Positions 34,796 to 43,955 of a stretch of 64,000 nucleotides of DNA are shown piece after piece. A model generated the notes under the pieces. The model did no database searches. It saw nothing but the letters and a program-made list of their open reading frames with translations, and was not told the origin of the DNA. Position numbers and translations under genes: made by a program. How positions within the stretch are numbered: position 1 is the stretch's first letter; every line of letters starts with the position of its first letter. The stretch comes from Limnohabitans sp. Its GTDB lineage: Bacteria; Pseudomonadota; Gammaproteobacteria; Burkholderiales; Burkholderiaceae_C. Location of the stretch: the NCBI GenBank assembly GCA_018882835.1, contig VERE01000009.1, positions 1 through 64,000 on the forward strand, in the 5' to 3' direction.

Positions 34796-35914
34796 CTACA
34801 AAGCCCAGGGACCTGCTGTCAGGTCCACGGCCACGCCTGTCTGGGCAGCGTGTTCGGCGGCCAAGCCGATGACCACAGCCTTCAGGCCATCGTTGAGGCT
34901 GACCTCCACCTTGCCGCCAGAGCGCACCACCTCCAAGAATTTTTGATGCTGGTAGAAGGTGGAGCCGTTGTGGTCGCCGGCTGCCAAAAGCTGCGGGTCT
35001 ACTGGCACCTCCAAGGTACGTGGTCCCGGCGGGTGACGCGGGCTCACCACCACCTGCGCCACCGGCGCTGCCCCCAGCACGTCCTCTCGCCAAAACCGCG
35101 TGGGGCCAGGCACTTTGCATTCAAGCTTCCCCTTGGGTCCGACCAGGCTGATTTCCTCCTGGTAACGCGCCCCTTCGGCAAACATGCACAACTCCAGCAT
35201 GGCCCGCCGCCCGCGCGGAAAATCCAGCACCACATAGGCGTTGTCCAAAATATCTGGCCGCCCTTGTGCGTAGACCTCATCCAAGTGGTTGTGGTTTTGC
35301 CCCCCCGAGGCAAACAGCCGCACGGGGTCGTCTTGCATCACCAGGCGCATCAAGTCAAAAAAATGGCAGCACTTCTCCACCAGGGTGCCACCGGTGTTGC
35401 TGGCAAACCGATTCCAGTCCCCGACTTTTTCTAAAAATGGGTACCGATGCTCCCGGATGCTGAGCATCACCGTGCCACCGGTCTCCCGTTGTGCGTGCGC
35501 TTCGGTCAAAAAGCGTGCAATGGGTGGCATGTAGCGGTACTCCATCGCTGTCCAGATGGGGCAGGGGTAAGTGGAAGCAAGCGCTCTCAAGGCGCCCACT
35601 GCGGCCAGATGGGTACAGGCTGGCTTTTCGACCAGAATGGGCAAAGGCCGCGTGTTGGCGATCTCGGCCAACTGTTCGGCATGACAGTGGTTGGGGCTGG
35701 TGATCACCAGCGCATCCAGCGTCGGATAAGCCAGCAAGGCCTGCAATGAATCGAGGAAAACCGCTTGCGGCACCAAGGCTTGCGCGCGAAGGCGCATGGC
35801 GCTGTCGGGTTCGAAAATGGCGGCGACTTCGGCCTCCGGCAACAATGCCAAATTGCGCAAGTGCTCCTGGCCCATCATGCCGCAGCCCACCATGCCATAA
35901 CGTGTTTTCTTCAT
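34796..35914 (-). CDS. Gfo/Idh/MocA family NAD(P)-dependent oxidoreductase; candidate NAD-dependent sulfoquinovosidase-like enzyme (hypothesis)
   Basis: YGMVGCGMMGQEHLRNL Rossmann motif; VEKPACTHL; NTGGTLVEKCCHFFDLMRLVM. Confidence 0.9.
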   Translation of the reverse strand: MKKTRYGMVGCGMMGQEHLRNLALLPEAEVAAIFEPDSAMRLRAQALVPQAVFLDSLQALLAYPTLDALVITSPNHCHAEQLAEIANTRPLPILVEKPACTHLAAVGALRALASTYPCPIWTAMEYRYMPPIARFLTEAHAQRETGGTVMLSIREHRYPFLEKVGDWNRFASNTGGTLVEKCCHFFDLMRLVMQDDPVRLFASGGQNHNHLDEVYAQGRPDILDNAYVVLDFPRGRRAMLELCMFAEGARYQEEISLVGPKGKLECKVPGPTRFWREDVLGAAPVAQVVVSPRHPPGPRTLEVPVDPQLLAAGDHNGSTFYQHQKFLEVVRSGGKVEVSLNDGLKAVVIGLAAEHAAQTGVAVDLTAGPWAL

Positions 35915-35930: not shown

Positions 35931-36677
35931 TTAAGACCAGCGCGCGGTGTAGCGCGCAAGGCTGGGGTCGAACCAAGTGGTCGAGACTTCCTCCAGGCCC
36001 CCTTGCATGGACCAGGATTGACGCTCAACCTGCGCGCAGTTGCTTCCTGCTGACAAGCGAAACAGGCTCGGCGCCCACGAAGGCACCCTGCCCACGCCCA
36101 CATGATCTTCGACTTTTGAAATCCAAAAACCCAATTCGCTTTGGTAGAACTGGTAAAGCGCTTCCCCCAGGTCCTGCATTTGCAGGCCCTCCCGGTGGCG
36201 CGCATCAAACCAAATTTCTTCTAAAGCGACCGGCAAGTGGTTCAGGCAGCGCAGCCGTCTCAAACGGTAGCAGTGCTCACTGCCTGCATCGGCAAACGGT
36301 GAAAATCGCACGGGGCGACGCATGCGTTGCAAGTCCAGCACCAGCGCGGTCGGCAAGCCGCCGCCTCGCAGCAGTTCCAATCTGAAAAATTCGTAAATGC
36401 TGGTCCCGGCAGCCTTGGCCAGCGCCCCCTCGCGCACATAGGTGCCTGAGCCTTGCCGACGCTCCAGCATGCCGCGCGACACCAACTCGGCCAGCGCCTT
36501 GCGCACCGTTCCAACAGCCGCACCCAAGGACTGGGAAAGCTCTGACTCCGTCGGCAAGCGGTCTCCCACGCGCCAGTGCCCGGCGGCAATTTCACGCGAG
36601 ATCAGCTCGGTGATCCGCATGTACAGCGGCAAAGGCTTGGCAGGAATGGCCACAGAGGAAAGCTTGTTATCGGTCAT
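35931..36677 (-). CDS. GntR family transcriptional regulator (HutC/UTRA type)
   Basis: LYMRITELISREIAAGHWRVGDRLPTESELSQSLGAAVGTVRKALAELVSRGMLERRQGSGTYV. Confidence 0.93.
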   Translation of the reverse strand: MTDNKLSSVAIPAKPLPLYMRITELISREIAAGHWRVGDRLPTESELSQSLGAAVGTVRKALAELVSRGMLERRQGSGTYVREGALAKAAGTSIYEFFRLELLRGGGLPTALVLDLQRMRRPVRFSPFADAGSEHCYRLRRLRCLNHLPVALEEIWFDARHREGLQMQDLGEALYQFYQSELGFWISKVEDHVGVGRVPSWAPSLFRLSAGSNCAQVERQSWSMQGGLEEVSTTWFDPSLARYTARWS

Positions 36678-36755: not shown

Positions 36756-36784
36756 TTGACGAATTCATACATGATTCCTACACT
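36756..36784 (+). promoter_or_regulatory. Candidate sigma-70 promoter for the LLM monooxygenase gene
   Basis: TTGACG, 17 nt, TACACT in the divergent intergenic region. Confidence 0.55.
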
Positions 36785-36822: not shown

Positions 36823-37977
36823 ATGAGCATCGTCCCGATCAAGAGTGGCGCATTGGATGCCGCCGAAGTGGCGTGGTTCGCGCCTTTGTGCTCCGACGAT
36901 TACCGTCATCTGGGCGTGCCGGAGGGCGACTTTCGCAGCAGCTGGGAGAACACATCGGCCATCGCGCAAATGGCTGACCGGCTGGGTTATCGCAACATCC
37001 TGTGCCCCTCGTCTTACCAAGTGGGACAGGACACCCTGACCTTTGTGGCGGGCATGGCGCCATTGGCAACTCGGATGAATTTTTTAGCCGCCATTCGGTG
37101 TGGCGAAGTCCAGCCCATCATGCTGGCGCGCACCGTGGCCACCCTGGACCACATGCTCAAGGGGCGCCTGATTCTGAACGTGATCTCCTCTGATTTTCCG
37201 GGGGAAACGGCATCTAACGAATACCGCTACCAACGCTCCTGGGAAGTTGTCGAAATCTTGAAGCAAGCCTGGACCCAAGATGAAATCAATTTCGAGGGCC
37301 AAATTTACAACTTCAAGGGTTTGTCCACAGACCCGGTCAAGCCTTACCAAACAGGCGGCCCGTTGCTGTACTTTGGCGGCTACTCCCCGGCGGCCGTCGA
37401 TTTGTGCGCCGCCCATTGCGATGTTTACCTGATGTGGCCCGAAACCGAAGACGCGCTGGCCAACCACATGCGAACGGTGCACGCACGCGCCCAGCACTAC
37501 GGCCGCGTGATCGACTATGGCTTGCGGGTGCACATGATCGTGCGAGACACGGAACAGGAAGCCAAAGACTATGCAGAGGAATTGGTCAGTCAACTCGACG
37601 ATGAGATCGGGCGGCAAATCCGCGCGCGGGCGCTGGATGCCAAAAATTTTGGCGTCTCTTTACAAGCCAAGAATTTGGCGATGGCCGATTCTTCAGGATA
37701 CATCGAGCCCCACCTTTGGACCGGCATTGGCCGGGCGCGCTCGGGCTGCGGTGCAGCCCTGGTAGGCAGTGTCGACCAGGTTTTAAGCAAAATAGAACGC
37801 TATATGAAAATGGGCATTCGGGCCTTCATTTTTTCAGGTTATCCTCATCTGCAAGAGTGCGAGATTTTCGGCACCAAGGTGCTGCCTCACCTCAAAACCT
37901 GTTCCATGCCTGAAGTGTATGGACGGGTTCCCTCCCAAACACCCGCCACGCCTTTGGGCATTGGCCTTCGCCGTTAA
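36823..37977 (+). CDS. LLM-class flavin-dependent monooxygenase, alkanesulfonate monooxygenase (SsuD)-like
   Basis: C-terminal LWTGIGRARSGCGAALVGSVDQVLSKIERYMKMGIRAFIFSGYPHLQECEIFGTKVLPHL matches the SsuD-family pattern; LILNVISSDFPGE. Confidence 0.92.
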   Translation: MSIVPIKSGALDAAEVAWFAPLCSDDYRHLGVPEGDFRSSWENTSAIAQMADRLGYRNILCPSSYQVGQDTLTFVAGMAPLATRMNFLAAIRCGEVQPIMLARTVATLDHMLKGRLILNVISSDFPGETASNEYRYQRSWEVVEILKQAWTQDEINFEGQIYNFKGLSTDPVKPYQTGGPLLYFGGYSPAAVDLCAAHCDVYLMWPETEDALANHMRTVHARAQHYGRVIDYGLRVHMIVRDTEQEAKDYAEELVSQLDDEIGRQIRARALDAKNFGVSLQAKNLAMADSSGYIEPHLWTGIGRARSGCGAALVGSVDQVLSKIERYMKMGIRAFIFSGYPHLQECEIFGTKVLPHLKTCSMPEVYGRVPSQTPATPLGIGLRR

Positions 37978-37979
37978 GC

Positions 37980-38885
37980 ATGAACACGACCGTCCAACTT
38001 CACCCCTCCCTGCCCGCCTTCAGCCGCATCGTCTATGGCGCTTGGCGCATGAACGATGGCGCCGGCAGCACGCCAGCCCAAGCGCTGGAAAAAATAGAGC
38101 TGTGCCTGGACCAGGGGATCACCACCTTTGACCATGCTGACATTTACGGCAACTACAGCTGCGAGCAGCTGTTCGGTGATGCGCTGCGGCTTAAGCCCGC
38201 CTTGAAATCCCGGATGCAACTGGTCAGCAAGTGCGACATCATGTTGTTGTCGGACAAATTTCCAGAGCGGCGCGTGAAGTACTACGACACCAGCGCGGCC
38301 CACATCGAAGCCAGCGTTGACAGCTCTTTGCGCAAGTTGGGGGTGGAGCGCTTGGATGTGTTGTTGATCCATCGCCCCGACCCATTCATGGATGCTGCCG
38401 AAACCGGTGACTGCCTGGATCGGCTGGTGCAGGCCGGCAAGATTGGTGCAGCGGGTGTGTCCAACTTCAAAGCCTGGGACTGGAGCCTGTTGCAATCTTT
38501 CATGAAGACCCCGCTGGTCACGCAACAACTGGAAATCAGCCTGCTGGAACGCGCCGTGTTTCTGGATGGCACTTTGGCCCAGTGCCAACAAAACAAGGTT
38601 CACCCCATGGCCTGGTCGCCGTTGGCGGGCGGTCAGTTGTTCGGCCAGAGTGCCGCTGCGCTTCGGGTACAGCCCGCTTTGGAGCGGCTGGCCAAGGCGT
38701 TCGGCGTCGCCCCCGACGCGGTGGCGGTGGCCTGGTTGCTGGCGCATCCGGCAGGCATCCTGCCCGTCATGGGCACCAATCACCCCGCCAGAATCCGGGC
38801 ACTTTCAGACGCATGGCGTGTCAAGATGGACCGCGAAACCTGGTTTGAGCTCTGGACCCTGGCGGCTGGGCAAGAGGTGCCATGA
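37980..38885 (+). CDS. Aldo/keto reductase, YdhF-like
   Basis: SRIVYGAWRMND; GITTFDHADIYGNYSCEQLFGDAL; LDVLLIHRPDPFMDAAE; GVSNF; starts 2 nt after the LLM stop. Confidence 0.93.
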   Translation: MNTTVQLHPSLPAFSRIVYGAWRMNDGAGSTPAQALEKIELCLDQGITTFDHADIYGNYSCEQLFGDALRLKPALKSRMQLVSKCDIMLLSDKFPERRVKYYDTSAAHIEASVDSSLRKLGVERLDVLLIHRPDPFMDAAETGDCLDRLVQAGKIGAAGVSNFKAWDWSLLQSFMKTPLVTQQLEISLLERAVFLDGTLAQCQQNKVHPMAWSPLAGGQLFGQSAAALRVQPALERLAKAFGVAPDAVAVAWLLAHPAGILPVMGTNHPARIRALSDAWRVKMDRETWFELWTLAAGQEVP

Positions 38886-38954
38886 GTAGTCTCCCGCAGA
38901 CATCCTGCACCGGGTTGCGCGTATGCTAGCGCCTCTTGCAGGCAAAGGGGAGCC

Positions 38955-40028
38955 ATGGCCCACGTTGAGTTGAAACAGGTTCAGAAAAGTTACGACGGCC
39001 AAAATACAGTCGTGCACAGCGTTGACCTGGAAATACGCCATGGTGAGTTTGCCGTCTTGGTGGGCCCTTCGGGGTGTGGCAAATCCACCCTGTTGCGCAT
39101 GGTGGCCGGCCTGGAAACTGTCACGGCCGGCGATATTCTGATCGATGGCCAACGCGTCAATGACTTGCCCCCGCGGCAGCGGGACATCGCCATGGTTTTT
39201 CAAGACTACGCGCTGTACCCGCACAAGAACCTGTTTGAAAATATGGCTTTTGGCCTGCGGCTTCGCAAAGAGCCCGAAAGCATCATCCGACAGCGCGTGA
39301 TGGAAGCGGCCGAACTGCTCAAAATCGACCATTTGCTGGATCGGCGACCCGGCGCCTTGTCGGGCGGGCAACGCCAGCGCGTCGCCATTGGCCGGGCCAT
39401 CGTCCGGCAACCCAAGGTCTTCCTGTTTGACGAGCCCTTGTCCAATTTGGATGCTCAGCTGCGAGGCGAGATGCGCGCCGAGATCAAAAAGCTGCACCAG
39501 CGTCTGGGAGCCACGATCATTTATGTCACGCATGACCAGGTGGAGGCCATGACCTTGGCCGACAGAATTGCGGTCATGCAGGGCGGGCACAAAATTCAAT
39601 ACGACACACCCCACGCCATTTACAACCATCCCTGCGCGGTGTTTGTCGCCGGATTCACGGGCTCTCCACCCATGAACCTGCTGAAAGCCGAATGCACCCC
39701 CTCTGGGGTAAAAATTGCCGATCAGACCTTGACGTTGCCGGCCCATCAGCTGGCACGTTTGGCCGGCCGCCAACAAGTGGTGGTGGGCATCCGTCCGGAA
39801 AACCTTCAGTTGCAAACCATTGCAACCGATGGCATCGCCTTTCATGTTTCCCTGTCACTGCTGGAGCCCCTGGGGGCGGAAACCCTGGGCTTGTTTCAAA
39901 TAGGCTCACAAGAGTTGACAGCGCGCTTGTCCGCGCGCTTTCAGCAGCTCGCGGGCAGCTTATTGACGCTGCACACCCACACCGATCACCTTCACCTCTT
40001 TGATGCCGCGACGGGCCAGGCACTTTGA
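38955..40028 (+). CDS. Carbohydrate ABC transporter ATP-binding protein (UgpC/MalK type)
   Basis: VLVGPSGCGKSTLLRMVAGLE; ALSGGQRQRVAIGRAIVRQPKVFLFDEPLSNLDAQLR; C-terminal TOBE-like region. Confidence 0.95.
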   Translation: MAHVELKQVQKSYDGQNTVVHSVDLEIRHGEFAVLVGPSGCGKSTLLRMVAGLETVTAGDILIDGQRVNDLPPRQRDIAMVFQDYALYPHKNLFENMAFGLRLRKEPESIIRQRVMEAAELLKIDHLLDRRPGALSGGQRQRVAIGRAIVRQPKVFLFDEPLSNLDAQLRGEMRAEIKKLHQRLGATIIYVTHDQVEAMTLADRIAVMQGGHKIQYDTPHAIYNHPCAVFVAGFTGSPPMNLLKAECTPSGVKIADQTLTLPAHQLARLAGRQQVVVGIRPENLQLQTIATDGIAFHVSLSLLEPLGAETLGLFQIGSQELTARLSARFQQLAGSLLTLHTHTDHLHLFDAATGQAL

Positions 40029-40069: not shown

Positions 40070-41335
40070 ATGAAGCTTAAAACTCTGACCCAATGGCTGT
40101 CCGCCGCCCTAGTGGTGGCTGGCCTCAGCGGCCAAGCGGCCATGGCCGAGACCAAAATTCGTGTTTTTTCTGGCGGCCAAAATCAACGCCCTGACCTGAT
40201 GCGCAAGTTGTTCGACGCTTACCAAGCACAGAACCCGGGCACCACCATTGAAATTGAAACAGGTGGCGCCACCAGTGAGTTGCAACGGCAGTACCTGAGC
40301 ACGGTCCTGAATGCCAAAGACACGGCGATTGACATCTACATGATCGACATCGTCAACCCTTCACAGTACTTCAACGCGGGCTGGCTGGAGCCGTTGGACA
40401 GCTATGTGGGGGGAGCCGCCGCCCTCAAGCCCTATTTGCCGGTTTACTCGCAGGCCAATCTGGTCAACGGCAAAGTGGCCGCATTGCCCGCTTTTGCGGA
40501 CGCCATGTTCATGTACTACCGCAAGGACTTGCTGGAAAAACATGGGGTGAAAGAGCCCAAAACCTGGGACGAGCTGACAGCCGCTGCCAAGAAGATCACC
40601 GAGGCCGAAAAAAATCCAAGCCTGCAGGGCTTGAGCATTCAGGGCGCCCCCATTGAAGGCGCTGTCTGCACCTTCTTGTTGCCGTACTGGAGTCAGGGCA
40701 AACAATTCAACGATGCCAGCGGCAAGCTCACGCTGGACAAAGAAGCTGCCACCAAGGGCCTGGACATGTGGCTGAAGATGGTCGATGCAGGCGTGCTGAA
40801 AAAGAACATCGCCGAAGTCACCACCCCCGTCACCGTCAATGAGTTCAAGGCGGGCCAAGTGGTGTTTGCCATCAACTGGGGCTTTGCCTGGGACGTGTTC
40901 AAAGATGCCGCCGACAGTCAGGTCAAAGGCAAAGTGGGTGTCATGCCCTTGCCTGCCGTAGCCGGCGGCAAGAGCGCCACTTGCGTGGGCGGCTGGCAAT
41001 GGGCGGTCAGCGCCTTCAGCAAAAACAAACCTGCCGCTGCACAGTTGGTCAAGTACATGAGCACGCCGGAGGCCAGCAAATTCCTGGCGCGTGAAGGCTC
41101 GCTGCTGCCTGTGTTTCAAAGCGTCTACACCGATGCCGAGGTGCTCAAGCAGGCCCCGTGGTTCAAAGATGCGGCCAACGTCATCATCGCTGGGCAAGCA
41201 CGCCCGATCAGCAGCCAATATGGGCAGGTCAGCGACGTGGTGCGAACCAACACCAATGCTGCCTTGGCACGCACCAAGACACCGACAGAAGCCGTCAATG
41301 ACATTGAAGGCCGCCTGAACCGCGTCATGCGCTGA
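40070..41335 (+). CDS. Carbohydrate ABC transporter substrate-binding protein
   Basis: Signal peptide ending AAMAET; family-1 SBP features (YLSTVLNAKDTAIDIYMIDI; FADAMFMYYRKDLLEKHGV). Confidence 0.93.
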   Translation: MKLKTLTQWLSAALVVAGLSGQAAMAETKIRVFSGGQNQRPDLMRKLFDAYQAQNPGTTIEIETGGATSELQRQYLSTVLNAKDTAIDIYMIDIVNPSQYFNAGWLEPLDSYVGGAAALKPYLPVYSQANLVNGKVAALPAFADAMFMYYRKDLLEKHGVKEPKTWDELTAAAKKITEAEKNPSLQGLSIQGAPIEGAVCTFLLPYWSQGKQFNDASGKLTLDKEAATKGLDMWLKMVDAGVLKKNIAEVTTPVTVNEFKAGQVVFAINWGFAWDVFKDAADSQVKGKVGVMPLPAVAGGKSATCVGGWQWAVSAFSKNKPAAAQLVKYMSTPEASKFLAREGSLLPVFQSVYTDAEVLKQAPWFKDAANVIIAGQARPISSQYGQVSDVVRTNTNAALARTKTPTEAVNDIEGRLNRVMR

Positions 41336-41343
41336 GCCTTCGC

Positions 41344-42231
41344 ATGCTCAAAGCCCTGCGCGATCCCTCAGAAAAAGTGCTGGCGTGGCTGCTGCTCACG
41401 CCTGCCTTTTTGCTGATCGCGCTGATCGTCGTTTACCCGGTGGTCAAGCTGATTTACAACAGCTTCTTTGACTTGCGCTTGAGCGGTGGCGCCAACCTGG
41501 GGCAATTTGTCGGTTGGCTCAATTACCAAGACGCGCTGAAAGACGCCGACTTTTGGCATGCCACGCAAAACACCTTGTGGATCACGCTCATCACGGTGCC
41601 CGGCGCCTTGCTGGTCGGTTTGGGCTTGGCTCTGCTGGCCAACCTGCCATTTCAACGCAAATGGCCGGTGCGGCTGGCCCTGCTGTTGCCGTGGGCCTTG
41701 CCACTGAGTTTTTGCGGTTTGATTTTTGCCTGGTTCTTCAACACCGACTACGGCATCGTCAACGATGTGTTGCGCCGCCTGGGCCAACATGAAACCACCA
41801 TGTGGCTGCTTCAACCGAACTGGGCGTTTGCTGCCATTTGCCTGACCATCATCTGGAAGACCAGCTCCTTCATGGCCCTGATCCTGCTGGCTGGCTTGCA
41901 AATGATTCCGCGCTCCTTGTATGAAGCCGCCGAGGTTGATGGCGCCACACGCTGGCAACAGTTCTGGCAAATCACCTTGCCGTTGTTGGTGCCCAGCATC
42001 GTGGTCGCCCTGATCTTCAGAACGCTGACGGCGCTGCAAACGTTTGATATCCCTTACACCATGACCAAAGGCGGGCCCGGCAACAGCACGGAAACCCTGG
42101 CCATGTTGATTCACAAAACCACCATCGACTACCTGGATCTGGGTTACGGGTCCACGCTGGCGGTTTTCATGTTCCTGATTTCCATGGCGGTGACGGCTGT
42201 TTACCTTCGCCGTGTAGGACAAACAGCGTGA
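41344..42231 (+). CDS. Carbohydrate ABC transporter permease (MalF/UgpA type)
   Basis: EAAEVDGATRWQQFWQITLPLLVPSI permease loop. Confidence 0.94.
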   Translation: MLKALRDPSEKVLAWLLLTPAFLLIALIVVYPVVKLIYNSFFDLRLSGGANLGQFVGWLNYQDALKDADFWHATQNTLWITLITVPGALLVGLGLALLANLPFQRKWPVRLALLLPWALPLSFCGLIFAWFFNTDYGIVNDVLRRLGQHETTMWLLQPNWAFAAICLTIIWKTSSFMALILLAGLQMIPRSLYEAAEVDGATRWQQFWQITLPLLVPSIVVALIFRTLTALQTFDIPYTMTKGGPGNSTETLAMLIHKTTIDYLDLGYGSTLAVFMFLISMAVTAVYLRRVGQTA

Positions 42232-43067
42232 CCACGGCCTCCCCTCTCTGGACTGGCGCACGCTTGCGCATGGCCGCAGCGGCACTGATTGTGGTCAACG
42301 GTTTTTTCCCCGCCGTATGGATTTTGCTGACCTCGCTCAAAAGCGAGTCGGAGCTGGTGCGCAAACCCATCACCTGGCTGCCACAGGCCCCCACGCTGGA
42401 CAACTATGTTCACGCCTTCACCGCGCAGCCCCTGCTGCACTACTTGGGTAACAGCTTGATGGTGGCCAGCTTGTCCACCGTGCTTTCCTTGCTGGTGGCC
42501 GCGTGCGCGGCCTATGCCATTGCGCGCCTGAACTTGCGCTACCGGCAATGGATTCTGACGGCCATCGTGGCCTCCAGCATGTTTCCGCTGATCAGCCTGT
42601 TGGTGCCCATTTTTGAAACCATGCGCAGCCTGAACCTGCTGAACAGTTACCTCGCCCTGGTCTTGCCCTACACCGTGCTGAACTTGCCGGTCTGCACGCT
42701 GGTATTGGTCAGTTTTTTCCAAAGCATTCCCAAAGATTTAGAAAACGCCGCCATGATCGATGGCTGCTCCCGATTGGGCGCCCTGTGGCGCGTGGTCATC
42801 CCCTTGAGCGCGCCTGGAGTATTCACGGCGGGCATCCTGGCTTTCGTCAATGCCTGGGATGAGTTCTTGCTGGCTTTGTCCTTGAACGCGAGTGCGGCCA
42901 TGCGCACCGCCCCTGTGGGCATTGCCTTGTACCAAGGCGAATATTCTTTCCCCTGGCCCTTGATCAGTGCCGCACTGGTGATCACGATTGTGCCGGTGGC
43001 CTTGCTGATCGCCCTGTTTCAAGAGCGTGTCATTGGCGGCCTCACGCAGGGCGGGCTGAAGGGCTAA
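42228..43067 (+). CDS. Carbohydrate ABC transporter permease (MalG/UgpE type)
   Basis: ENAAMIDGCSRLGALWRVVIPLSAPGV permease loop; 4-bp overlap with preceding permease. Confidence 0.94.
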   Translation: MTTASPLWTGARLRMAAAALIVVNGFFPAVWILLTSLKSESELVRKPITWLPQAPTLDNYVHAFTAQPLLHYLGNSLMVASLSTVLSLLVAACAAYAIARLNLRYRQWILTAIVASSMFPLISLLVPIFETMRSLNLLNSYLALVLPYTVLNLPVCTLVLVSFFQSIPKDLENAAMIDGCSRLGALWRVVIPLSAPGVFTAGILAFVNAWDEFLLALSLNASAAMRTAPVGIALYQGEYSFPWPLISAALVITIVPVALLIALFQERVIGGLTQGGLKG

Positions 43068-43085: not shown

Positions 43086-43955
43086 TCAGGCATGAACTGG
43101 CGTGACCTGAATGCTCATGTCGATGGTCATGGATTCACCTGGCTGTAAAACCCTCAAGCCCAGCTCTTGCGCCTGGTAGCCCTTGCCTGCGGTGAGCAAG
43201 TTCATGGCGTTGTTGACATGGCTGACGGGCTCGATGGCCACAAAATCACGGGTGTCGTTGGTGAAGACCACCAGATGCTTCACGCTGGAGCGAAGCTCGG
43301 TGTGCAACTGCTCATCGCGCAAATGGACCACGCCCGTCCACCCGTCAAAGCAATGGTCCACCTCCAGAAAGTTGCAGTCGGCGTCCAGCCCTGAAACCGG
43401 TTGCCTGTGCGTGGGCAACTTGTCAGCGCCCATTTCCCACCGCCCCGTGGCGGCCATGGCGATGCGGCTGCGCGCACGTTTCACAAAATACGGATGCCAG
43501 CCCAAGCCCACTGGTGCAGGCTTGCTGTCCTGGTTGGTGATGGACAAAGTTTGGCTTAAGCGCGAGCCGTCCAGCGAAAAAGTCTGGGAGGCATCGAAGG
43601 CAAAAGGCCAACTGCTGTCGGCGCGGTGCTCATAAGCCAGCAAGGCGAATTGCGGGGTCTGCTCCAACACACTCCAGGGCCGTTGCCAACCTACGCCATG
43701 AATGGCATGCGGCTCGCTGCCGTTGTTGCGCACCAAAGGATGGCTTGTCCCTTGCCACTGAAGCGTTGCTTGGCCAATGCGGTTGGAGAAGGGCACCAAA
43801 GGATAGCTGCCCGACTGCCTAGCCTGCGTCAGTTGCGCGCCAGCGACAGAGCGCAATACTGGGAGGTCGCCAAACCACAAGCCCGCGACACAGCCTCCCA
43901 GGTCAGGGCGGATGTCACATCGCAGTTGCGTGCTTTCAAGGGTCAGGGTGGGCAT
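43086..43955 (-). CDS. Aldose 1-epimerase family protein
   Basis: SYPLVPFSNRI; LVRNNGSEPHAIHGVGWQRPW; PVGLGWHPYFVK. Confidence 0.9.
   Translation of the reverse strand: MPTLTLESTQLRCDIRPDLGGCVAGLWFGDLPVLRSVAGAQLTQARQSGSYPLVPFSNRIGQATLQWQGTSHPLVRNNGSEPHAIHGVGWQRPWSVLEQTPQFALLAYEHRADSSWPFAFDASQTFSLDGSRLSQTLSITNQDSKPAPVGLGWHPYFVKRARSRIAMAATGRWEMGADKLPTHRQPVSGLDADCNFLEVDHCFDGWTGVVHLRDEQLHTELRSSVKHLVVFTNDTRDFVAIEPVSHVNNAMNLLTAGKGYQAQELGLRVLQPGESMTIDMSIQVTPVHA

Follow-up and report, generated by a model that had tools for sequence, protein, structure and literature searches.

Genes at the locus

The interval 34,796-35,914 of the window (the whole 64,000-nucleotide stretch of Limnohabitans sp. DNA that was analysed) corresponds to exactly one gene on the minus strand which, read from the letters, runs from an ATG at 35914 to its stop and encodes 372 aa. 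The translation contains both YGMVGCGMMGQEH and VEKPACTHL as well as a Rossmann motif, GCGMMG, in the NAD-binding domain of a two-domain fold, and it matches the Pfam GFO_IDH_MocA model and both C-terminal domain models above cut-off. We took ATG 35914 as the start because the resulting N-terminus aligns with those of the relatives; a longer frame from TTG 36208, which overlaps the GntR gene, was discarded as an artefact of the ORF listing. A preliminary description of this DNA had placed a Rossmann-type Gfo/Idh/MocA enzyme here, adjoining the regulator of a monooxygenase cluster, and the coordinates, motifs, Pfam matches and GntR neighbour agree with it. The features of the locus are as follows.

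34796..35914, minus strand: very probable GH188 NAD-dependent sulfoquinovosidase (SqgA-like), 372 aa; assigned from sequence scores, residues, tree and model
35931..36677, minus strand: GntR/UTRA regulator (SmoD-like), from Pfam; the GH188 gene follows it after 16 bp, read in the same direction
36763..36783, plus strand: operator-like motif ATTCATACATGATTCCTACAC, between a -35-like TTGACG and a -10-like TACACT, upstream of smoC
36823..37977, plus strand: SmoC, luciferase-like, flavin-dependent sulfoquinovose monooxygenase; 631 bits to 7olf and 622 to 7oh2
37980..38885, plus strand: SmoB, a 6-dehydroglucose reductase of the aldo-keto reductase type, matching Pfam Aldo_ket_red; 7bby and 7bbz at 336 bits, the next entry at 231
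38955..40028, plus strand: SmoE-type ABC transporter ATPase, from family models
40070..41335, plus strand: SmoF-type sulfoquinovosyl-glycerol-binding protein; 453 bits to 7nbz (SmoF), next 207
41344..42231, plus strand: SmoG-type ABC permease, from family models and relatives
42228..43067, plus strand: SmoH-type ABC permease, from family models and relatives
43086..43955, minus strand: aldose-1-epimerase, probable sulfoquinovose mutarotase, from Pfam; related bacteria have homologues beside GH188 in their sulfo-ED clusters

The smoC gene is divergent from the GntR gene, and the mutarotase gene is convergent with the importer genes. Alkanesulfonate monooxygenases proper scored at most 216 bits against the SmoC of the window. 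The entries 7olf/7oh2 and 7bby/7bbz carry generic depositors' names, and we take them to be the sulfo-SMO enzymes SmoC and SmoB, respectively; 7nbz was deposited as the sulfoquinovosyl-glycerol-binding protein SmoF. SmoC requires the flavin reductase SmoA. No smoA gene was found in the window cluster, where the ATPase gene begins 69 bp after smoB (38885-38955). It is missing also from L008 and L123, apparently one and the same related cluster, and adjoins smoB in most relatives. A genome search located the flavin reductase closest to a relative's SmoA on another contig (C77, 41% identity), and other flavin reductases are also encoded elsewhere, with candidates on C66, C23 and C79. Sulfo-SMO clusters are recognised by a co-located SmoC monooxygenase and SmoB reductase, SmoA being accessory and not required (PMC13372026), and the window cluster carries SmoC and SmoB together.

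The motif ATTCATACATGATTCCTACAC consists of two near-direct repeats, and a like sequence occupies the same place in relatives. When the whole genome was searched with it, allowing up to 3 mismatches, the smoC site alone was matched. The motif is a candidate operator for the GntR protein, which may control the cluster.

The 34,796-35,914 protein belongs to family GH188

In a sequence search of solved structures, the protein scored 503, 382 and 377 bits against the three GH188/SQase entries (8ZN9, 8QC3 and 8QC2), and 51 bits against the best other Gfo/Idh/MocA structure, a gap of more than 300 bits. The residues of ArSqgA that contact sulfoquinovose (SQ), a sulfur sugar of plants, are K107, Y136, R166, L170, K172, E189, H193 and H321 (PMC10755693), and all eight are identical in the window protein. 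The sulfonate triad of ArSqgA, Arg166/Leu170 (backbone)/Lys172, corresponds to R157/L161/K163, and its catalytic and SQ-contacting residues Lys107, Tyr136, Glu189, His193 and His321 correspond to K97, Y126, E180, H184 and H315. This eight-residue pattern is kept in every row of the clade to which the window protein belongs, and in none of the ten outgroup Gfo/Idh/MocA proteins, paralogues from the same genome included.

In a maximum-likelihood tree, in which bootstrapping had not fully settled and the outgroup branches are long, the window protein grouped within GH188, together with ArSqgA and 8ZN9 and away from the outgroups; the GH188 rows lie on one side of a branch with support 93/88. Within the family it belongs to a betaproteobacterial set of nine rows (support 99/97), its nearest rows being other Burkholderiales. 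For the AlphaFold model (pLDDT 92.7), the top 12 Foldseek matches were all GH188 crystal structures, with a TM of 0.94 (0.87 for one partial chain) and an rmsd of 1.3-1.6. Inositol, glucose-fructose and other enzymes came lower in the list; their query TM did not exceed 0.78, and their rmsd was 3-6.

The genome collection yielded 80 relatives, and in 56 of them the locus extends at least 8 kb to either side of the gene. SmoC lies near GH188 in 51 of these 56 loci, SmoB in 50 and a GntR regulator in 52, and a YihQ-type GH31 in none of the 56.

It could be argued that the gene encodes an ordinary inositol, glucose-fructose or other Gfo/Idh/MocA sugar dehydrogenase that lies beside the cluster by chance. 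The fold superfamily is indeed the same, and the best NCBIfam match is the myo-inositol 2-dehydrogenase model TIGR04380 (iolG). That match, however, reaches 93.8 bits, far under the curated cut-off of 355; the paralogues lack the sulfonate triad and the E/H pattern, and a SmoC neighbour that recurs in 51 of 56 relatives speaks against chance. On the structure scores, the TIGR04380 shortfall, the residues, the tree and the model comparison, we rejected inositol or glucose-fructose dehydrogenase identity and regard this explanation as extremely improbable. The preliminary description had put forward GH188 membership as a possibility, with an ordinary sugar or inositol dehydrogenase as the main alternative, and had pointed to a tree, the sulfonate-binding residues and a structural model as checks; scores, tree and model support the proposal, the residues are present, and GH188 structures with bound SQ can be superposed on the model. 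From sequence, model and gene context we conclude, with high confidence, that the gene encodes a GH188 sulfoquinovosidase of the SqgA type, which would cleave the glycoside for a sulfo-SMO pathway.

The GH188 gene as the probable sulfoquinovosidase of the genome

The Limnohabitans sp. genome (98% complete, 107 contigs, 5% estimated contamination) contains a single GH31 by whole-genome search, on contig C10 (L121:5969-8104), with none on the contig of the window (C22), and the search found no second GH188. Nor does a GH31 occur among the ORFs of positions 24000-48000, in agreement with the earlier observation that none lies near the gene. The GH31 on C10 could in principle be the working SQase, making the window GH188 redundant, and in several Burkholderiales its orthologues (1028-1148 bits) do lie within a GH188/smo cluster or close to one. 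Its closest families, however, are maltase-glucoamylase and MalA-type alpha-glucosidases, with just 97 bits to YihQ. In the alignment to YihQ it retains the catalytic D405 and D472, but not the sulfonate-recognition residues Q288, R301 and W304, and it sits on its separate contig with a sugar ABC operon of its own. Family match and missing residues led us to reject it as an SQase, and we consider such a role most improbable. Because this single GH31 lacks the YihQ sulfonate residues, the window GH188 is, as judged by homology, the only SQase candidate found in this 107-contig assembly, and the earlier wording that GH188 replaces GH31 here seems apt.

A non-SQase GH31 and a second sugar ABC operon occur together in or near the GH188/smo clusters of L014, L018, L022, L127 and L129, and also of L010, L013 and L077.

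Proposed pathway

ArSqgA acts through transient oxidation at C3, deprotonation at C2, elimination of the aglycone, addition of water and re-reduction at C3 (PMC10755693). By homology transfer from ArSqgA/FlSqgA, we infer the same chemistry for the window enzyme. The SmoEFGH-type transporter would bring in sulfoquinovosyl glycerol, and the GH188 enzyme, with bound NAD+, would hold its sulfonate through R157, K163 and the backbone NH of L161, a triad that would be the source of specificity. C3 of SQ would be transiently oxidised by NAD+, with H184 and K97 at the C3 hydroxyl; Y126 would then remove the C2 proton so that glycerol is eliminated, with H315 near C1. Addition of water followed by re-reduction of C3 would yield free SQ with zero net redox change. 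The mutarotase could equilibrate the SQ anomers, after which SmoC would cut the C-S bond to give sulfite and 6-dehydroglucose, and SmoB would convert the latter to glucose.

The enzyme might instead be a true GH188 whose natural substrate is the glycoside of another sulfosugar, or a beta- or lipid-linked SQ, in place of SQ-glycerol. The sequence does not reveal the substrate, and GH188 enzymes act on alpha- and beta-SQ glycosides alike (PMC10755693). The binding protein of the importer, however, is closest to SmoF, and the neighbours SmoC and SmoB are of SQ-pathway types, so that we judge a different substrate unlikely and SQ-glycerol the probable one.

Comparison with known systems

The closest solved structure discussed here, 8ZN9, was deposited as "Oxidoreductase, putative" in an entry titled for novel marine sulfoquinovosidases; it is 64% identical to the window protein over 360 aa and shares its active-site residues and fold. 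In the tree 8ZN9 falls with a Roseobacter sequence, and the window protein with betaproteobacterial ones. A Nat. Commun. paper on marine sulfoquinovosidases is the probable source of 8ZN9. ArSqgA of Arthrobacter sp. U41 (8QC3, 8QC5, 8QC6), the type enzyme of GH188 (PMC10755693), is 50% identical, superposes with a TM of 0.94 and has the same SQ-contacting and sulfonate residues. Its homologue in Arthrobacter AK01 lies in a sulfo-EMP cluster, whereas the window gene lies in a sulfo-SMO cluster.

The sulfo-SMO cluster of Agrobacterium, which comprises SmoA-I, shares with the window SmoC, SmoB, a SmoEFGH-type importer and a GntR-type regulator. In the window cluster, by contrast, GH188 substitutes for SmoI, the GH31 SQase; there is no SmoA, and a mutarotase is additional. 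A nearer counterpart is the cluster of Rubrivivax pictus (L008; L123 is apparently the same), which has the gene order of the window, GH188-GntR and SmoC-SmoB-SmoEFGH, likewise without SmoA, and whose GH188 is 68% identical to that of the window; in contrast to the window, no mutarotase was found in the available stretch of L008.

GH188 was founded in 2023, and has been found in sulfo-EMP, -ED, -SFT, -SMO and -SDO clusters that lack a GH31 SQase (PMC10755693). Since GH188 was reported in sulfo-SMO clusters in that study, the window gene is a further member of a known family in a known type of cluster. What the analysis adds is a function where generic family models say just Gfo/Idh/MocA oxidoreductase, and one more Burkholderiales genome that can probably use SQ-glycerol beyond free SQ. 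Among the papers searched, none mentions sulfoquinovose and Limnohabitans together, and one contains both sulfoquinovose and Comamonadaceae. This 2026 ISME J. survey found Comamonadaceae labelled by 13C-SQ (PMC13372026), and clusters of the GH188/sulfo-SMO kind are a candidate explanation for that labelling.

A second GH188 clade and a possible mosaic origin

The related loci also include betaproteobacterial sulfo-ED clusters with a distinct, Tyr-type GH188. This second clade, from the same bacterial family (L099-L119, L130-L140), is about 41-48% identical to the window GH188, and in 21 of 21 of its sequences Tyr replaces Leu at the position of ArSqgA L170. A Tyr variant of GH188 is known from actinobacterial, EMP-like clusters (PMC11465081); these enzymes and the betaproteobacterial clade (L099-L119) belong to the same family as the window GH188 but have Tyr for Leu at the sulfonate backbone position. 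The second-clade clusters that were examined at length are of the sulfo-ED type, with an IlvD/EDD dehydratase, an HpcH aldolase, an SDR and a SmoEFGH-like importer, and part of the loci also have an SGL lactonase and a mutarotase. Near the GH188 of L099-L119 lie an importer and a mutarotase of the types seen in the window, but in sulfo-ED clusters.

The importer and mutarotase of the window resemble their counterparts in these betaproteobacterial sulfo-ED clusters, and the window SmoF groups in a tree with that of L140, from a sulfo-ED cluster (81% identity, support 99/96). A tentative reading, to which we give somewhat less than even weight, is that the window cluster is a mosaic, in which a sulfolytic core of GH188, GntR, SmoC and SmoB acquired the importer and mutarotase of a betaproteobacterial sulfo-ED cluster, smoA was lost, and SmoC is served by a flavin reductase encoded elsewhere. 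In a concatenated SmoEFGH tree, a single SMO clade was not rejected (AU p = 0.16), and because this result keeps such a clade, the sulfo-ED origin of the importer and mutarotase stays a suggestion. If the mosaic reading were true, import and hydrolysis would be modular front ends that SQ pathways exchange with one another.

Two gammaproteobacterial GH188 genes, from Marinomonas (L072) and Reinekea (L075), have no SmoC nearby, and their loci may be sulfo-SDO clusters; the representative clusters shown in PMC10755693 include one from Marinomonas ushuaiensis.
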